Part shown: positions 34,169 through 41,277 of the stretch, piece by piece
How the letters are laid out: every line of letters starts with the position of its first letter
Numbering within the stretch: the first letter of the stretch is position 1
DNA from: Streptomyces sp. NBC_01255
GTDB lineage: Bacteria > Actinomycetota > Actinomycetes > Streptomycetales > Streptomycetaceae
Assembly: GCF_036226445.1 (NCBI RefSeq)
Contig: NZ_CP108474.1
Coordinates: forward strand, 1,550,001-1,614,000
Length of the DNA stretch: 64,000 nucleotides
Direction: 5' to 3'
Made by a program: the position numbers and the translations under genes
The notes under the pieces: model-generated
Seen by the model: only the letters and a program-made list of their open reading frames with translations
Told to the model about the DNA's origin: nothing
Database searches by the model: none

Positions 34169-35251
34169 TCAATGGCGGATACCCAGTGCCGGGAGGACCG
34201 TCTCCGCGACCCGGTAGGCCTCCTCCAGGAGCGGGTTCCCGGACAGGATGAACGTGTCCACGCCCAGCTCCCGGTACTCCTGGAGGCGCTCCACGACCTG
34301 GGCCGTCGACCCGACGACCGCCGTTCCCGGACCGGGCCGGAACAGCCCCATGCCGGGCCAGAGATTCGGGTGGACCTCCAGTTCGCGCGCCCGCGCGGGG
34401 ACCCGGCCGCCGTGCTGCCGGAACTGGCGCTGCCAGCCGACACCGTCCTCGCCCGCCCGCTCGCCGAGCTGCCGGGCGTACGTCGCCTCGCTGGTGACGT
34501 CGAGCAGCCGGTCGGCCGCCGCCCAGGCCTCGTCCTCGGTGTCGCGGACGATGAGGTGGAGCCGGAGGCCGATCCGGAGGGTACGGCCGTGGGCCGCGGC
34601 CCGGGCCCGTACGTGGTCGAGCTTCTCCTTCAGCAGGTGCGGGGGCTCGCCCCAGGTGAGGTAGACGTCGACGTGCTCGGCGGCCATCTCGATGCCGGGC
34701 GCCGACGAGCCGCCGAACCACAGCGGGACGTGCGGCTCCTGCACGGGCCTGAGGTCCCGGAAGGAGGCGCCCGCGTTCCTGAGGTCGTAGAAGCGGCCCT
34801 TGTGGTCGAAGACCTCCCCCGCCGTGAGCCGCTTGACGATCGACCAGTACTCGGCGCTGAGTGCGTAGCGCTCGTCGTGCTCGACGTGGAGCCCGTACTC
34901 GCGCAGGGCGGCGGTGGAGCCGTTGACCACGTTGAAGCGGAGCCGGCCGTCGAAGAGGTTGTCGAAGCTGAGCGCCATCTTGGCGAGCAGGGTCGGGGCG
35001 ATCAGGCCCGGGTGGACGGCGAGCAGCGGCTTGAAGCGGGTGCTGGTGGAGGCCGCGAGTGCGGAGCCGAGGGGCCAGACGTCGTAGAGGTCGGTGGCGA
35101 GCAGCGCCCCTGTGTAGCCGAGGCGTTCGACGGTTCCGGCGAGCTGCGCGAGGTAGCCGAGGTCGACGGGGCGGCGGCCCGCCGGCTCCCACGGGTAGGC
35201 GCCTTCGCGCGGGATGATGTACCAGAGGACTTCGGGTGCGGGGGTCGTCAC
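34169..35251 (-). CDS. ssuD: Alkanesulfonate monooxygenase (SsuD-like, FMNH2-dependent)
   Basis: SsuD cleaves the C-S bond of alkanesulfonates to give aldehyde and sulfite. The 360-residue protein tracks E. coli SsuD closely (RPVDLGYLAQLAGTVERLGYTG, VDVYLTWGEPPHLLKEKL, GLRLHLIVRDTEDEAW with the active-site Arg and His, LSGNPLLEEAYRVAE). The region holding SsuD Cys54 reads LLATDLYDVW, so that Cys is missing and the loop is shorter. No SsuE flavin reductase gene is nearby. It is last in the six-gene sulfonate operon, 5 bp after the preceding stop. Confidence 0.9.
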   Translation of the reverse strand: MTTPAPEVLWYIIPREGAYPWEPAGRRPVDLGYLAQLAGTVERLGYTGALLATDLYDVWPLGSALAASTSTRFKPLLAVHPGLIAPTLLAKMALSFDNLFDGRLRFNVVNGSTAALREYGLHVEHDERYALSAEYWSIVKRLTAGEVFDHKGRFYDLRNAGASFRDLRPVQEPHVPLWFGGSSAPGIEMAAEHVDVYLTWGEPPHLLKEKLDHVRARAAAHGRTLRIGLRLHLIVRDTEDEAWAAADRLLDVTSEATYARQLGERAGEDGVGWQRQFRQHGGRVPARARELEVHPNLWPGMGLFRPGPGTAVVGSTAQVVERLQEYRELGVDTFILSGNPLLEEAYRVAETVLPALGIRH

Positions 35252-35256
35252 GGTGC

Positions 35257-36120
35257 TCAGGCCTTCCGGGGCAGCGCGTCGGCGACGGTGATCGCGCGGT
35301 CGATGAATCCGGTGCGGTGGAAGATGTCCGCCGCCTGCTGCTGCTCGGCGATGAACTCCTCGGTGACCGGCTCGATCGTCCAGGGCAGGGCGCGCAGCGC
35401 GGTCTCCCAGTCGTCCGCGGTGCCGCCCTGGTCGGCGGCGGCGATCTCGGCGGCCTCGCGCGGATGCGCGGCGGCCCAGTCGTCGGCCCGCCGGAGGGCG
35501 CGGGTGAGCGCCTCGACGAGCTCGGGCCGCTGCTCGGCCAGGTCTCGGCGGGCGAAGAAGACGGACCGGTCGGTGATGACCTCGCCGGTGCGGACCAGGG
35601 TGCGCAGTCCGCCGGCGCGGCGGGCGGCGGCGAGCTCGGCGCCCTGCGCGACCCAGGCGGTGATCTCACCGGAGCGGAGCTTCGCCTCGCTGGCCGAGTC
35701 GCCGCGTACGGGGGTGATGTCGGTGGCGTACGAGAGGCCGGCGTCGTCCAGGGCCTTGGCGACGAGATGCGTCTGCCAGGAGCCGACGGCGAGGTGGACG
35801 GTGCCGCCCTTGAGGTCGGCGACGGTACGGACCGGGCTGTCGTCGGGGACGAGGAGGGCGCCGTGGTCGGGGCGGGGCGCGGAGACGGCGGTGTAGACGA
35901 TGTCGTGGCCGGCGGCCTGCGCGGTGACGGGCGGCGTGGAGCCGGTGCCGCCGAAGTCGATGGTGCCGTCGGCCAGGAAGGCCCCGGTGCGGACTCCGTC
36001 GGTGTACGGGTGCCAGGTCACGGTCTCGCCGAGGGCGGCGAGCTCCTGCTCCGCGTAGCCGAGGCGGGAGAGGTGGTAGAGGGAGGGGTTGCTGCGGTGG
36101 ACACCGATGGTGACGGTCAT
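35257..36120 (-). CDS. SsuA-like binding-protein homologue without a signal peptide
   Basis: The 287-residue protein has the type II periplasmic-binding fold of sulfonate/nitrate receptors (FGGTGSTPPVTAQAAGHDIVY, VADLKGGTVHLAVGSWQTHLVAKAL, AWVAQGAELAAARRAGG) but begins MTVTIGVHRSNPSL with no signal peptide or lipobox. The start is fixed by the 4-bp ATGA overlap with ssuB. It is therefore cytoplasmic and may be an enzyme or a sensor rather than a transporter receptor. It lacks the DszB catalytic Cys. Confidence 0.82.
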   Translation of the reverse strand: MTVTIGVHRSNPSLYHLSRLGYAEQELAALGETVTWHPYTDGVRTGAFLADGTIDFGGTGSTPPVTAQAAGHDIVYTAVSAPRPDHGALLVPDDSPVRTVADLKGGTVHLAVGSWQTHLVAKALDDAGLSYATDITPVRGDSASEAKLRSGEITAWVAQGAELAAARRAGGLRTLVRTGEVITDRSVFFARRDLAEQRPELVEALTRALRRADDWAAAHPREAAEIAAADQGGTADDWETALRALPWTIEPVTEEFIAEQQQAADIFHRTGFIDRAITVADALPRKA

Positions 36121-36890
36121 GCGGGGGCTCCTTCGAGCGGGGCGGGGGCGGCGGGGGGTGTTCCCTCGGGCGTGTGGACGCCGAGGTCGGCGAGGAGGCG
36201 GCGGCGCAGGGCGACGAAGGCGGGGTCGCCGGGGTCGCGGGGCCGGGCGACGGCGACGGGGACGTCGGTGACGAGCCGCCCGTCGCGCAGGACGGCGACC
36301 CGGTCGGCGAGGCGTACGGCCTCGTCGACGTCGTGGGTGACGAGCAGGACCGCGGGGTGGTGGACGCGGCGCAGCTCGCCGACGAGGTCCTGCATACGGA
36401 GCCGGGTCAGCGCGTCGAGCGCGGCGAACGGCTCGTCGAGGAGCAGGAGTTCGGGCTCCCGTACCAACGCCCTGGCCAGTGCGACGCGTTGGGCCTCGCC
36501 GCCGGACAGGGTGGCAGGCCAGGCGTCGGCATGTCGGTCGAGGCCGACCTCGGCGAGGGCCCGCAGGCCGGTCGCCCTGGTCGCCGCCCCGCGCGGCAGC
36601 CCGACGGTCACATTGCCGAGGACCTTCGTGGAGGGGATGAGCCGGGGCTCCTGGAAGACGATCGTGCGGGCGGCGGGGACGAGGGCCTCTCCTCCGTCGG
36701 CGCCGTCGAGGCCGCCGAGGATGCGCAGCAGGGTCGTCTTGCCGCTGCCGCTCGCCCCGAGCAGGGCGAGGAACTCGCCGCGCGCGAGGGTGAGGTCCAG
36801 GCCGTCGAGGACGGGGCGGGTGCCGAAGACGCGGCGCAGGCCCCGTACCCGTACGGCTGTGGCTGGGGCTGTGGACGTGGACGTGCTCAT
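36117..36890 (-). CDS. ssuB: Sulfonate ABC transporter ATPase
   Basis: The 257-residue ATPase has Walker A GASGSGKTT, Q-loop VFQEPRLIPST, signature LSGGEAQR, Walker B LLLDEPFAALDA and the switch His in VTHDVDEA, as in the SsuB/TauB group. It energises the SsuC permease. Start and stop overlap the neighbouring genes by 4 bp on each side, so expression is tightly coupled. Confidence 0.93.
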   Translation of the reverse strand: MSTSTSTAPATAVRVRGLRRVFGTRPVLDGLDLTLARGEFLALLGASGSGKTTLLRILGGLDGADGGEALVPAARTIVFQEPRLIPSTKVLGNVTVGLPRGAATRATGLRALAEVGLDRHADAWPATLSGGEAQRVALARALVREPELLLLDEPFAALDALTRLRMQDLVGELRRVHHPAVLLVTHDVDEAVRLADRVAVLRDGRLVTDVPVAVARPRDPGDPAFVALRRRLLADLGVHTPEGTPPAAPAPLEGAPA

Positions 36891-37801
36891 CGGGTTCCTC
36901 CTCCGGGGCCCGCCGTGCGCCAGGGCATGAGGATCCGCTCCAGTCCGCGGACGAGGACGTCGGCGGTGAGGCCGAGCAGTCCGTACACGAGGATGCAGAC
37001 GGCGAGGATGTCGGTGCGGGCGTAGCTCTGGGCCTGGGACATCAAGTAGCCGATGCCTTCGGTGGCGTTGATCTCCTCGGCGGCGATGAGCGCGATCACG
37101 CTCAGCGTCATGGAGAGCCGGAGTCCGGCGAGCAGCGAGGGCAGCGCGCCGGGCAGGACGACCTGGCGCACGATCGCGAGGCGGCCGAGGCCGAAGCTGC
37201 GCATCGCCTCGACGAGCTTGCGGTCGGTGTTGCGGACGCCGCCTGAGGCGGAGACGTACATGGGGAAGGTGGTGGCGACGGCGATGAGCAGGATCTTCGC
37301 GGTCTCGTTGATGCCGAACCACACCATGAAGAGCGGGACGAGGGAGAGGAAGGGGATGGTCCGCAGGGTCTGGAGGGAGGAGTCGAGGAGCTCGTCGCCG
37401 AGCCGGGTGAAGCCGGTGGTGATGCCGAGGGTGAGCCCGGCGGCGAGGCCGATGACGAGCCCGATGCCCGAGCGGGTGAGGGACGTGGCGAGCGCGTCCG
37501 GAAGCTGACCGTTCCCCCACAACTCCCCTACGGCTTTGATGACTTGGGGCGGAGACGCGAGCACGTCGGGGGTGAGGAGGCCGGTGGCGGAGGAGATCCA
37601 CCACAGGGTGAGGAGGGCGACCGGGCCGAGGGCGCGGACGGTGAGGGAGCGGGCGCGGGAGCGGGGGCGCCTGACGGGCGGGCGGGGCGCGACGAGTCCG
37701 GTGGCCGTCGTGGTCGCCTTGGGCTCCTCGCTCGCCCTGACCTCCTCGGTCGCTTCGGCCGCCTGGTCCGCCTTGGTCGCCTGGGCCGTCACGCTCGTCA
37801 T
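36887..37801 (-). CDS. ssuC: Sulfonate ABC transporter permease
   Basis: The 304-residue membrane protein has a charged cytoplasmic N-terminal extension of about 50 residues, then about six membrane helices and the EAMRSFGLGRLAIVRQVVLPGALPS coupling loop of the BPD family. Its membrane-core pattern (IPFLSLVPLFMVWFGINETAK) is typical of SsuC/TauC. It overlaps ssuA and ssuB by 4 bp each. Confidence 0.92.
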   Translation of the reverse strand: MTSVTAQATKADQAAEATEEVRASEEPKATTTATGLVAPRPPVRRPRSRARSLTVRALGPVALLTLWWISSATGLLTPDVLASPPQVIKAVGELWGNGQLPDALATSLTRSGIGLVIGLAAGLTLGITTGFTRLGDELLDSSLQTLRTIPFLSLVPLFMVWFGINETAKILLIAVATTFPMYVSASGGVRNTDRKLVEAMRSFGLGRLAIVRQVVLPGALPSLLAGLRLSMTLSVIALIAAEEINATEGIGYLMSQAQSYARTDILAVCILVYGLLGLTADVLVRGLERILMPWRTAGPGGGTR

Positions 37802-38799
37802 GACAGCTTCTCGATGTCAAGGAGATGGGCGGCGATGTCGACCTTGTTCGGCGTGACCTTCTGGTCGGCGTAGAACCCGGCGACGGTCTCGAAGCGCTTG
37901 ATGTCCTCGGCGCCGATCGGATCGACGGTGCCTCCCTTGCGGGTGAAGCCGATCTGGACCTCCTTGGCCTTGCCGTTGACGGCCGTGGGACCGGCGTCGG
38001 TGAAGACGTTGAGATAGGCGGCCGGGTCGCTCTTCTCCTTGGCGCTGTTCTCGTGGAGGTAGCGGTAGAGCGCCTTCACGACCTCGGGGTGCTGCGCGGC
38101 GAAGTCCGAACGGACCGCGTTGAGGCTGTAGTTGTCGGAGTCGATCGCGGTGCCGTCGGCGACGAAGTGCGCCTTGCCGGAGCCGATCTCGGCGACGGCG
38201 TAGGTGGACCAGACGGCCCAGGCGTCCACCTGGCCCGCGTTGAAGACGGCGGCCGTCTGGTCGGGGCGCAGATAGACCCGCTCGACCTTGTCGGCGGGGA
38301 CGCCTGCCCGGGCGAGGGCCTTGAGCAGCAGGTACTCGCCGGTGCCGCCCTTGTTGACGGCGACCTTGCGGCCGACGAGGTCCTTGACGGAGGCGATGTC
38401 CGAGCCCTCGCGGACGAGGATGCCCTCGCCGACGGGGTCGGGGTCGGTGGCCGTGAAGAAGGCGAAGCCGGGGCTCTGGGAGAGGGACGTGATGCCGGAG
38501 GTGATGGAGCCGGTCGCGATGTCGAGCTGGTCGGCGTTCATGGCCTGGGCGGCGGGGGCGAAGGGGCCGGCGCTGCCGGTCCAGGCCACCTTGGCGCCGA
38601 CGGCGGCGAGCGCCTTGTCGAGGCTGCCGTCCTTCTTGCCGCGGGCGAGGACGCCCGCGTTGCCGGGGTCGGGGATGCGGACGGTGACGGTTCCGCTCGT
38701 TCCCTTCGACGCCTCCGTCCCCGTGGCGCCGCCGCAGGCGGTGACGGTGGAGAGGGCGGCGAGGGCCGCCAGAGCGGCGAGCGGGGTGAGTGGGCGCAT
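37798..38799 (-). CDS. ssuA: Sulfonate ABC transporter substrate-binding lipoprotein
   Basis: The 333-residue receptor has a lipoprotein signal with lipobox TVTAC (Cys22) and the SsuA fold: GKKDGSLDKALAAVGAKVAW, DIATGSITSGI, GRKVAVNKGGTGEYLLLKAL and WAVWSTYAVAEIGSGK. It should bind aliphatic sulfonates or sulfate esters outside the membrane and deliver them to SsuBC. It is the second gene of the operon, 63 bp after the desulfinase-like gene. Confidence 0.92.
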   Translation of the reverse strand: MRPLTPLAALAALAALSTVTACGGATGTEASKGTSGTVTVRIPDPGNAGVLARGKKDGSLDKALAAVGAKVAWTGSAGPFAPAAQAMNADQLDIATGSITSGITSLSQSPGFAFFTATDPDPVGEGILVREGSDIASVKDLVGRKVAVNKGGTGEYLLLKALARAGVPADKVERVYLRPDQTAAVFNAGQVDAWAVWSTYAVAEIGSGKAHFVADGTAIDSDNYSLNAVRSDFAAQHPEVVKALYRYLHENSAKEKSDPAAYLNVFTDAGPTAVNGKAKEVQIGFTRKGGTVDPIGAEDIKRFETVAGFYADQKVTPNKVDIAAHLLDIEKLS

Positions 38800-38862: not shown

Positions 38863-39885
38863 TTACGGGACGGGGTGCGGCGATCGCTGCCCGCTGGCGG
38901 AGGCGAGGAGCCGGGCTCGGCGGAGCGGCTCCGGGTCGGCCCAGGCCCGTACGTCCACGGCCTCGGGCAGGAAGCCGTGTGCGCGCAGCGCCTCCTCCTG
39001 GCGGGCGAGGAGGTCGAGTCGGGTGGCCGACAGGTCCGGGTGGAGGGTGCGGTGGATGCCGGGCCGATAGGCGCCGGCGACACCCTCGGCGCCCGCGCCG
39101 GTCTCGGCGCCGAGGATGCGGGCGACCTCGGCGGGCTCGTCGGCGGCCCAGTCGGCGGCGCGGAGCAGGACGGCGAGGAAGCGCGCGACCAGCTCGGGAT
39201 GCTCGTCCAGGAGGTCCTGGTGCACGGTGAGGGGGCGCGGGGTGCCGTTGTTGACGCGGTGCGCGGGGTCGGGGAGCTCGTCGAGTTCCACGGCGACCTC
39301 GGCTCCGGCGCGGCGGGCCGCCTCGACGGCGAGGGCTCCCTTCACGTACACGGCGTCGACCTCGCCCCGGCGCAGTGCGGCCAGCTCGGCCGCCCACTGA
39401 CCGGAGTGGCCGTCGGCCGGTACGTCGACGAGGACGGCGTCCGTGAGCCCGTACCCCGCCGAGGCGAGGACGCCCTCGAAGCCGCGCACGGCCATGGCCC
39501 GCCAGAAGTCGATCGGCACGGAGTGGCGGGGCACGGCGAGCCGGAGGCCGCGCAGGGCGGCGGCGCCACGGACCGGTGAGCCGGGGCCGACGAGTACGGT
39601 CTGGCGCTCTTCGATCCAGGTGAGGCCGACGAGCCGGGTGCGCTCGCCGCGTGAACGGGCCCACAGCGCGGGCACGTTGCCGCCCTCGCGGAAGAGCCCG
39701 GGAAGAGCGTGGGTGAAGTGGGCGGCGCGGTCGGCGCCGGGTTCGGCGTCCTGGAGGGAACGGACGGCGATCCCGTCCGGGGCGAACTCCCCGGCCAGCC
39801 AGCCGCGGTCGGCGGCGACACCGGTGGCGGTGGGGACGGGGCAACGGGTGAACCAGAGCGTGTCGGGGACGCGGGCAGGGGTCAT
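38863..39885 (-). CDS. DszB-like sulfinate desulfinase homologue
   Basis: DszB of Rhodococcus releases sulfite from 2'-hydroxybiphenyl-2-sulfinate in the 4S desulfurisation pathway and has a periplasmic-binding-protein fold without a signal peptide. This 340-residue protein keeps its active-site motifs: Cys15 in FTRCPVPTA (DszB NCPVPNA, Cys27), His56 and Arg66 with the same 10-residue spacing as DszB His60 and Arg70, the following GERTRLVGLT, and a similar C-terminus (LDLLARQEEALRAHG). It has no signal peptide. It heads the ssu operon, so a sulfinate made from imported organosulfur is a likely substrate. A non-catalytic binding role is the alternative. Confidence 0.82.
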   Translation of the reverse strand: MTPARVPDTLWFTRCPVPTATGVAADRGWLAGEFAPDGIAVRSLQDAEPGADRAAHFTHALPGLFREGGNVPALWARSRGERTRLVGLTWIEERQTVLVGPGSPVRGAAALRGLRLAVPRHSVPIDFWRAMAVRGFEGVLASAGYGLTDAVLVDVPADGHSGQWAAELAALRRGEVDAVYVKGALAVEAARRAGAEVAVELDELPDPAHRVNNGTPRPLTVHQDLLDEHPELVARFLAVLLRAADWAADEPAEVARILGAETGAGAEGVAGAYRPGIHRTLHPDLSATRLDLLARQEEALRAHGFLPEAVDVRAWADPEPLRRARLLASASGQRSPHPVP

Positions 39886-40365: not shown

Positions 40366-40367
40366 CT

Positions 40368-40449
40368 CGGCTCCCACGATGTGGGATTGCGTATGAACAG
40401 AGTGTTTCCGACCGCGTCCCCCACCTGATTCGGCTCCCGCCATGTGGGA
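40368..40449. promoter_or_regulatory. Two near-identical 19-bp operator-like sites
   Basis: CGGCTCCCACGATGTGGGA (40368-40386) and CGGCTCCCGCCATGTGGGA (40431-40449) match at 17 of 19 bases, and each contains a TCCCRC-nnn-GTGGGA palindrome. They start exactly 63 bp apart, six helical turns. They lie between iclR and the ssu promoter, fitting cooperative IclR binding or a loop. Confidence 0.65.
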
Positions 40450-40485
40450 GCGTGGGAGCCCGATCACCCACGGGGAGCGAACTCT

Positions 40486-41277
40486 ATGACGACCGAGGCC
40501 GGCATCGCCCGACCCCCGGCGGGCGCCCAGGCGGTCCGCCGCGCCCTGGACGTGCTGCACTGTTTCCACGACAACGGGCCCGATCTGAGCGCCTCCGACC
40601 TCGCACGCCGGCTCGAGCTCTCCACCTCCACGGCGCACCGGCTGGCGCGGACCCTGCTCGGTGCGGGATTCCTGGAGCAGGACGCCCGGACCGCCCGCTA
40701 CCGGCTCGGTCCGGCGATGACCGAGCTGGGCCGGCTCTCGTACCACCAGCGGGGGCTGCACCTGGCCACGCCCGAGCTGGCCGATCTGGCCGAACGGACG
40801 GGCGCGACCGCCGACTTGGCGCTGCGCAGCGGCCCGCACGTGGTGATCGTGGCGGGCGGTTCGGTGACGCCGAAGGTCGGCCTGCGCCGGCCCCTGCACT
40901 CCACGGCGCTCGGGAAGGTGCTGCTCGCCTGGCCCCGCGCGGGCGAGGGCGGCCCCCGCTCCCTGCCGCCGCTGCCCGCGTTCACCGAGCGGACCATCGT
41001 CGAACCTCCGGCCCTGACCGCCGAGTTGGCCCGCGTGCGGGAGGCGGGGTACGCCCTCAACGACGGCGAGTCGGCCCACGGGGTGCGGACCGTGGCCGTG
41101 CCGGTCCTGGAGCGGGCGGGGCACGCGCGGTTCGCGCTCGCGGTCCGCGCGACGCCGGAACTGATCACCGACGCGCGGCTCGACTGGTACCTGGCGCAGG
41201 CGCGCGAGTGCGCCAGGGCGCTGGAGGTCCTGCTCCTGGCCCCGACGGAACGGCGGGACCCCGGAGACCGCGCCTGA
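40486..41277 (+). CDS. IclR-family transcriptional regulator
   Basis: The 263-residue protein has the IclR winged helix (AVRRALDVLHCFHDNGPDLSASDLARRLELSTSTAHRLARTL in pieces; residues 12-55) and the effector domain with LHSTALGKVLLAW and GYALNDGESAHGVRTVAVPV. IclR proteins repress or activate catabolic operons in response to small acids. GGGGAGCG (40472-40479) lies 6 nt before ATG 40486. Its position, divergent from the sulfonate operon, makes it the likely regulator. Confidence 0.92.
   Translation: MTTEAGIARPPAGAQAVRRALDVLHCFHDNGPDLSASDLARRLELSTSTAHRLARTLLGAGFLEQDARTARYRLGPAMTELGRLSYHQRGLHLATPELADLAERTGATADLALRSGPHVVIVAGGSVTPKVGLRRPLHSTALGKVLLAWPRAGEGGPRSLPPLPAFTERTIVEPPALTAELARVREAGYALNDGESAHGVRTVAVPVLERAGHARFALAVRATPELITDARLDWYLAQARECARALEVLLLAPTERRDPGDRA

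Follow-up and report, generated by a model that had tools for sequence, protein, structure and literature searches.

On the minus strand of the window, by which we mean the whole 64,000-nucleotide stretch of Streptomyces sp. NBC_01255 DNA analysed here, a gene for a DszB-type desulfinase-like protein heads a tight row of genes for an SsuA-like protein, a permease, an ATPase, a second SsuA-like protein and an SsuD-like (LLM) monooxygenase (Table 1). This agrees with an earlier note on the same DNA, which had placed the gene at the head of a sulfonate uptake operon. Three of the five junctions in the row are overlaps, one leaves 5 bases between the genes, and 63 bases follow the first gene. The DszB-type reading frame runs from an ATG at 39885 to a stop at 38863; it is a real gene, present in one full-length copy in the 8.57 Mb genome.

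Table 1. Genes and features of the DszB-type locus, in positions of the window
Feature	Position	Strand	Remarks
IclR-type regulator, divergent	40486..41277	+	IclR_C and HTH_IclR domains (search run on 40444-41277)
20-base repeat, two copies	40367..40449	.	copies 90% alike, with a spacing of 63 bases; possible operator ahead of the IclR gene
DszB-type desulfinase-like protein	38863..39885	-	340 aa; tetrad Cys15/His56/Arg66/Gly69; one cysteine; without signal peptide
SsuA-like lipoprotein, exported substrate-binding	37798..38799	-	SsuA_fam E 2.1e-39, 135.5 bits vs cut-off 163.5; lipobox-type N-terminus
SsuC-like permease	36887..37801	-	PRK11365 SsuC E 3.7e-65, under cut-off
SsuB-like ATPase	36117..36890	-	PRK11247 E 8e-66, under cut-off (search run on 36117-36893, an extra codon included); ATG at 36890 overlaps permease stop
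Second SsuA-like protein, leaderless	35257..36120	-	SsuA_fam E 1.4e-43, 149.2 bits vs cut-off 163.5
SsuD/MsuD-like FMNH2-dependent monooxygenase	34169..35251	-	SsuD 1nqk/1m41 E about 1e-90; MsuD 7jv3 E 2.9e-86

The best NCBIfam matches of the operon genes are to Ssu models, every one of them under the curated cut-off. The second SsuA-like protein has SsuA as its closest solved structure (2x26, E 3.2e-33) and, judged by eye, is without a leader in 18 of 18 loci, each of which also encodes a lipoprotein SsuA; being leaderless, it is probably cytoplasmic. The reading frame of the divergent IclR-type gene opens with a GTG at 40444, the ATG at 40486 being the likelier start, and a gene of this type is found in all 44 Streptomycetaceae loci. 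The 17-base core of the repeat in front of it occurs in 11 of 210 loci, two of which are the own genome while some of the others are one genome repeated. In addition, 10 ORFs in the region from 32.8 to 43.0 kb were classified. Neither a DszC-type gene nor a flavin reductase is among them, and none encodes a monooxygenase closer to DszA than to SsuD, so that for this region the earlier remark on missing dszA/dszC-type neighbours is borne out.

When the DszB-type sequence alone was searched against the PDB sequences with phmmer (E up to 0.001), DszB was the sole protein matched, with entry 2de2 at E 3.3e-18 and entries 2de3/2de4 at E 9.8e-17. The score against Rhodococcus DszB (P0153) was 66.2 bits, compared to a maximum of 4.0 among shuffled sequences (85 of 100 shuffles gave a score), and a chance likeness was therefore rejected. 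A profile built from 27 proteins of this kind, which we call ssu-type, matched a profile of 16 DszB/TdsB-type proteins with a probability of 100 and an E of 2.5e-48 over 329 columns; searched against the PDB, the same ssu-type profile gave DszB as by far the best match (E 2.8e-37), with SsuA at 1e-5. On the PDB match, the shuffles and the profile matches together, kinship with DszB, rather than with an ordinary SsuA, is firm as judged from sequence. An ancestry among substrate-binding proteins is still visible in matches to NMT1 (E 1.1e-5) and to SsuA_fam (E 1.2e-17, under the cut-off), and among the matches listed (the best 120 of 1812 relatives) most named relatives are annotated as ABC transporter substrate-binding proteins. 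In a genome scan, the closest named records among the matches listed, from Streptomyces sp. Root431 and S. gardneri, share 96% protein identity.

Counted along the phmmer alignment, C15, H56, R66 and G69 pair with C27, H60, R70 and G73 of DszB, the four residues named as its active site in PMC12168087, according to which the sulfinate is held by His60 and Arg70 and reacts with Cys27. The earlier assignment of Cys15, His56 and Arg66 to the DszB triad was therefore correct, and the glycine can be added to it. The same is true of the shared His-to-Arg spacing, which is 10 in both proteins without gaps, whereas the Cys-to-His spacing is 41 in the window protein against 33 in DszB, so that gaps are needed. 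The C-terminal half also aligns with DszB, both in a second phmmer stretch and in the profile-profile comparison, as the earlier reading of a similar C-terminal segment had it. The protein shows no signal peptide, its N-terminus not being hydrophobic, and no in-frame start lies upstream before a stop codon, which leaves no room for a leader.

The window protein and the best 120 of its 1812 relatives, 121 rows in all, keep the tetrad without exception, and 118 of these rows have a single cysteine. These rows were picked by shared words, not by cysteine, and represent close relatives, the named ones being Streptomyces and one Kitasatospora. In another set of 112 rows, a count biased towards Cys because one of the two scan patterns contains Cys-Pro, the cysteine is found in 105, the histidine in 110, and the arginine and Gly69 in all 112. 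Ser replaces Cys in seven rows and the His is absent from two, in some proteobacterial paralogues, which implies that not every member need be a desulfinase-type enzyme. Such Ser-for-Cys paralogues lie beside Cys copies in the Pseudomonas loci L123, L128, L134, L139, L141 and L143, and a Burkholderia paralogue (L014, 5230-7962) has Ser for Cys and no His; possibly, the Ser-for-Cys forms are inactive partners.

Despite this homology over the whole length, with the tetrad and a single cysteine common to the window protein, DszB (P0153) and TdsB (P0173), the window protein belongs to a sister clade and lies in an ssu rather than a dsz operon. A single-cysteine DszB is also noted in PMC8557817. 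On a tree of 75 proteins (56 ssu-type, 16 DszB/TdsB-type and 3 of the substrate-binding type), the ssu-type group, with rows from Streptomyces, the Nocardia family, Actinomadura, Pseudomonas, rhizobia, Burkholderia and Sphingobium, is the sister (support 99/98) of the DszB/TdsB clade (100/99). DszB and ssu-type rows together are split from the three substrate-binding rows at 100/99, these three being very long branches. The tetrad, a clade apart from substrate-binding proteins and the missing leader, which are features of the DszB superfamily, are thus present in the window protein. Its identity as DszB itself was rejected, as it falls outside the DszB clade and carries Gly at the Leu226 position. 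What remains of the earlier description as a DszB homologue is the homology and the tetrad, in a member of a sister subfamily.

The two groups were compared in an alignment of 51 proteins, 34 of them ssu-type (Actinomycetota and Pseudomonas) and 17 DszB-type. Leu226 of DszB, present in 17/17 DszB-type rows, is replaced by Gly183 in all 34 ssu-type rows, a pairing that the profile-profile alignment reproduces, and the position of Trp225 (Trp in 9/17) is Lys182 in the same 34. Ser25-Asn26 becomes Thr13-Arg14, Tyr63 (9/17) becomes His59, and Ala250-Val254 becomes Gly-Thr-Pro-Arg-Pro in 34/34 ssu-type rows. In addition, a set of 27 ssu-type rows that takes in rhizobial, Burkholderia and Sphingobium proteins has His59, Lys182, Gly183, Arg210 and Arg217 without exception. 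One deposited desulfinase, P0169, has Gly at the Cys position, the tetrad being otherwise common to the 51-row alignment; it was kept in alignment A3 and left out of alignment A5 and the tree.

Trp155, Phe203 and Leu226 are residues that we take to line the DszB pocket (Leu226 after Lee 2006), and the first two are constant throughout the DszB clade. Their counterparts differ between the two alignments: in the 51-row alignment Trp155 pairs with Trp128 (Trp in 16/34) and Phe203 has no partner, while in the profile-profile alignment Phe203 pairs with Trp164 and Trp155 has none. The aromatic wall of the pocket may therefore be partly kept. The residues at the Leu226 and Trp225 positions, being unlike those of DszB, make a biphenyl-like aryl substrate less likely, and the comparison as a whole suggests a substrate smaller or more polar than biphenyl sulfinate.

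The SsuD-like monooxygenase is nearest to SsuD and MsuD in a PDB search and falls short of the curated SsuD test (352 bits vs a cut-off of 518). In MsuD, W195, R225 and R296 are required for sulfite production, according to PMC8234197; all three are kept here, as W200, R230 and R305. Its pattern at six positions recurs in 43 of the 45 rows that share at least 60% identity, the protein itself among them, and the Trp and both Arg are retained in 33 of 59 rows at 35-59% identity. SsuD Tyr331 is replaced by Asn339, and the sulfonate-binding loop reads Arg-Pro-Gly-Pro instead of Arg-Gly-Gly-Ala, its proline leaving it without the backbone NH that MsuD uses. The enzyme may act on a sulfonate, or these changes may mark another substrate. 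The operon as a whole resembles SsuEADCB in its SsuA-, SsuB- and SsuC-type genes and in a monooxygenase that keeps the Trp and both Arg with which MsuD binds the sulfonate; it differs by the addition of the DszB-type and the leaderless SsuA-like protein, by products all scoring under the Ssu cut-offs, by the Asn and the altered loop of its monooxygenase, and by the absence of a flavin reductase from the 10 ORFs classified. A second SsuD-like gene is found elsewhere in the genome, and no SsuA- or permease-type matches were detected in the 13 kb around it.

The gene company was then compared across genomes. Same-strand genes for SsuA, permease, ATPase, second SsuA-like protein and LLM monooxygenase accompany the DszB-type gene, within the stretch covered, in 61 of 64 actinobacterial loci (42/44 from Streptomycetaceae and 19/20 from other Actinomycetota), the exceptions being S. 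bikiniensis, S. violaceus and a 6.1 kb contig of Actinomadura roseirufa. The 80 loci of this named-genome scan were chosen by similarity, and some of their genomes are shared with a set of 20 Streptomyces regions (one genome twice), of which 18 carry the five-gene set. The other two, of a 51-52% identity type, are without an importer and have only the LLM and an IclR-type gene. All 17 ssu-type regions examined from the Nocardia aurantia family contain the set, ordered in 16 of them as SsuA, permease, ATPase, DszB-type, LLM, LLM and second SsuA-like, while in the remaining one (L191) the DszB-type gene comes first. Across the groups of Actinomycetota, then, the gene order varies but the same neighbours recur, and this speaks for a shared function.

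Outside the Actinomycetota the surroundings are different. Each of 16 Pseudomonas loci has a DszC-related gene nearby, and 12 have a same-strand LLM; none of the 16 has a same-strand SsuA- or permease-type gene. In three of them (L128, L129 and L141) an ssu-type ATPase, two permeases and a substrate-binding protein are encoded on the opposite strand at a distance of 6 kb. In L123 the same-strand ATPase is of the oligopeptide type, and its DszC-related gene, the only one classified, is SfnB-like (390 bits vs a cut-off of 431). The Sphingobium and Burkholderia loci have three DszB-type copies each, beside ssu-type genes. The Sinorhizobium copies adjoin acyl-CoA-dehydrogenase-like and NtaA-type genes, and a DszA-related monooxygenase of the NtaA type is found in two Sinorhizobium loci and in a Mesorhizobium locus. 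On pSymA of Sinorhizobium (L016, 7974-11305; L017, 5690-9020), two DszB-type genes flank the acyl-CoA-dehydrogenase-like gene with the NtaA-type monooxygenase downstream, possibly a 4S-like cluster in symbionts. True dszABC genes were found in three loci (L048, L208 and L209).

The earlier note had also stated that DszB is not known from ssu operons, and on this point it was not quite right. Table 1 of PMC8557817 lists among the proteins of Rhodococcus qingshengii IGTS8 that are up on dibenzothiophene (log2 change >2, by its footnote) peg4799 SsuA, peg4801 SsuB, peg4804 SsuD and peg4806 SsuA, together with peg4802, 'Dibenzothiophene desulfurization enzyme B, SsuA/DszB'. An annotated DszB thus lies within an SsuA-SsuB-SsuD-SsuA cluster (peg4799-4806), and since the peg numbering fits the gene order of the 16 Nocardia aurantia family regions, peg4802, matched by annotation and gene order, is probably an orthologue of the window protein. 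In Gordonia terrae, PMC3868597 lists a desulfinase gene, up-regulated on benzothiophene, that by locus number adjoins sulfonate-type ABC genes; this bdsABC system, likened here by description, differs in that DszC- and DszA-type monooxygenase genes belong to it. No activity for an ssu-linked DszB-type protein was found among the matches listed in the open-licence PMC full text. The arrangement is therefore not new, and the operon type is already in print but unexplained as far as open-licence PMC shows.

Taken together, the whole tetrad, the lack of a leader and the ssu-type operon make a sulfinate-splitting step the best reading of the locus. We propose, with a probability of roughly 0.59, that the gene product is a cytoplasmic member of the DszB superfamily that cleaves C-S bonds, a desulfinase that would release sulfite from a non-biphenyl sulfinate. 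Under sulfate limitation, SsuABC would import an organosulfur compound, and the sulfinate would either be imported as such or be formed from the cargo by the flavin monooxygenase of the operon. His56, Arg66 and Gly69 would then hold the sulfinate by its SO2 group, Cys15 would take part in splitting it, and the sulfite released would enter assimilation. The substrate would perhaps be doubly charged. The sulfinate as substrate, the sulfite as product, the order of the steps and their regulation are what we infer from the homology and the conserved operon. Several points count against this reading: the SsuD-like neighbour would itself free sulfite from alkanesulfonates, so that no obvious source of a sulfinate is encoded; the Leu226 and Trp225 residues of DszB are replaced; some proteobacterial paralogues lack the Cys or the His; most named relatives among the matches listed carry the name of a binding protein; and two of the 20 Streptomyces regions are without the importer. 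Of the earlier suggestion that a sulfinate, perhaps aryl or alkyl, is split in the cytoplasm, the location and the splitting agree with the tetrad, the missing leader and the operon, while Gly183 and Lys182 tell against a biphenyl-like aryl substrate.

The public annotation makes the protein a routine binding component of the ABC importer, exported like others of its kind. This would account for the database names and for the place beside the SsuA-, SsuC- and SsuB-type genes, but the operon already has its own lipoprotein SsuA; with the leader absent and no in-frame room for one, we rejected this explanation, which is hardly tenable. A binder that stays in the cytoplasm needs more consideration. 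The substrate-binding fold could serve, with no catalysis, as a sensor or as a carrier to the monooxygenase, or could inform the IclR regulator, and the visible ancestry, the other leaderless protein of this type in the same operon and the Ser-for-Cys paralogues sharing loci with Cys copies in Pseudomonas and Burkholderia are all in line with such a role. However, binding alone would not require the constancy of the tetrad and of the lone cysteine seen among the close relatives, and the closest family is an enzyme; we therefore regard it as unlikely, if still credible.

If the protein is an enzyme, its chemistry may differ from that of DszB. Direct desulfonation, sulfone cleavage or decarboxylation, with the Cys as proton donor, would suit an importer and an LLM enzyme that look sulfonate-directed, and the five invariant residues unlike those of the DszB clade (His59 to Arg217) suggest a more polar substrate; yet the His, Arg and Gly that anchor the sulfinate in DszB are all retained, and another leaving group appears rather improbable to us. 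In the opposite direction, the protein might be an aryl-sulfinate desulfinase whose specificity is essentially that of DszB, and so one part of a scattered 4S-like pathway, an idea to which the conserved tetrad, the aromatic Trp164 paired with Phe203 (in the profile-profile alignment only), the DszC-related genes of Pseudomonas and the NtaA-type monooxygenases of Sinorhizobium and Mesorhizobium lend some colour. The replacements at the Leu226 and Trp225 positions throughout the ssu-type rows, the separate clade and the absence of dszA and of dszC from the window's classified ORFs speak against it, and we consider it very improbable.

Most work on DszB has treated it as a slow catalyst for desulfurising fuels. 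If the desulfinase reading is true, a broad sister subfamily would provide natural desulfinases with other substrates, would bear on the origin of DszB and would extend sulfur assimilation in soil by a sulfinate branch; the recurrence of the same gene set in many bacteria suggests that a route by which sulfur is obtained from sulfinates has been overlooked. We further suggest, tentatively and at somewhat less than even odds, that the ssu-linked clade could be the main branch of the DszB superfamily, devoted to a widespread assimilation of sulfinates in soil, that many 'alkanesulfonate' importers might serve sulfinate-yielding compounds, and that the substrate might be polar and non-aromatic. 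In that case, DszB would be a specialised sister recruited for dibenzothiophene. Since the genes are present in easily handled Streptomyces and Pseudomonas, the question is directly testable.

As to the spread of the subfamily, one genome scan gave at least 564 confirmed stretches. In phylum-wide searches, in which no more than 5 to 7 candidates were scored for each genome, a first sample had a full-length member in 2 of 296 genomes, the own genome included, and any match in 9 of 296, while a second had a member in 2 of 396, again with the own genome, a third match being partial. Among 199 Streptomyces genomes, 24 have a member, the own genome included (one of these split in two and one of only the 54% type), and 19 further genomes have weak matches only. 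In the Nocardia aurantia family a match at E<1e-114 occurs in 25 of 201 genomes, N. aurantia included, and the regions of 17 of the 25 were examined; beyond these 25, the family has two true dsz cases, one split gene and one weak match. DszB-type genes in two pieces were seen in L064 (genome G300) and in L188/L190 (genome G780), either as pseudogenes or as assembly errors.
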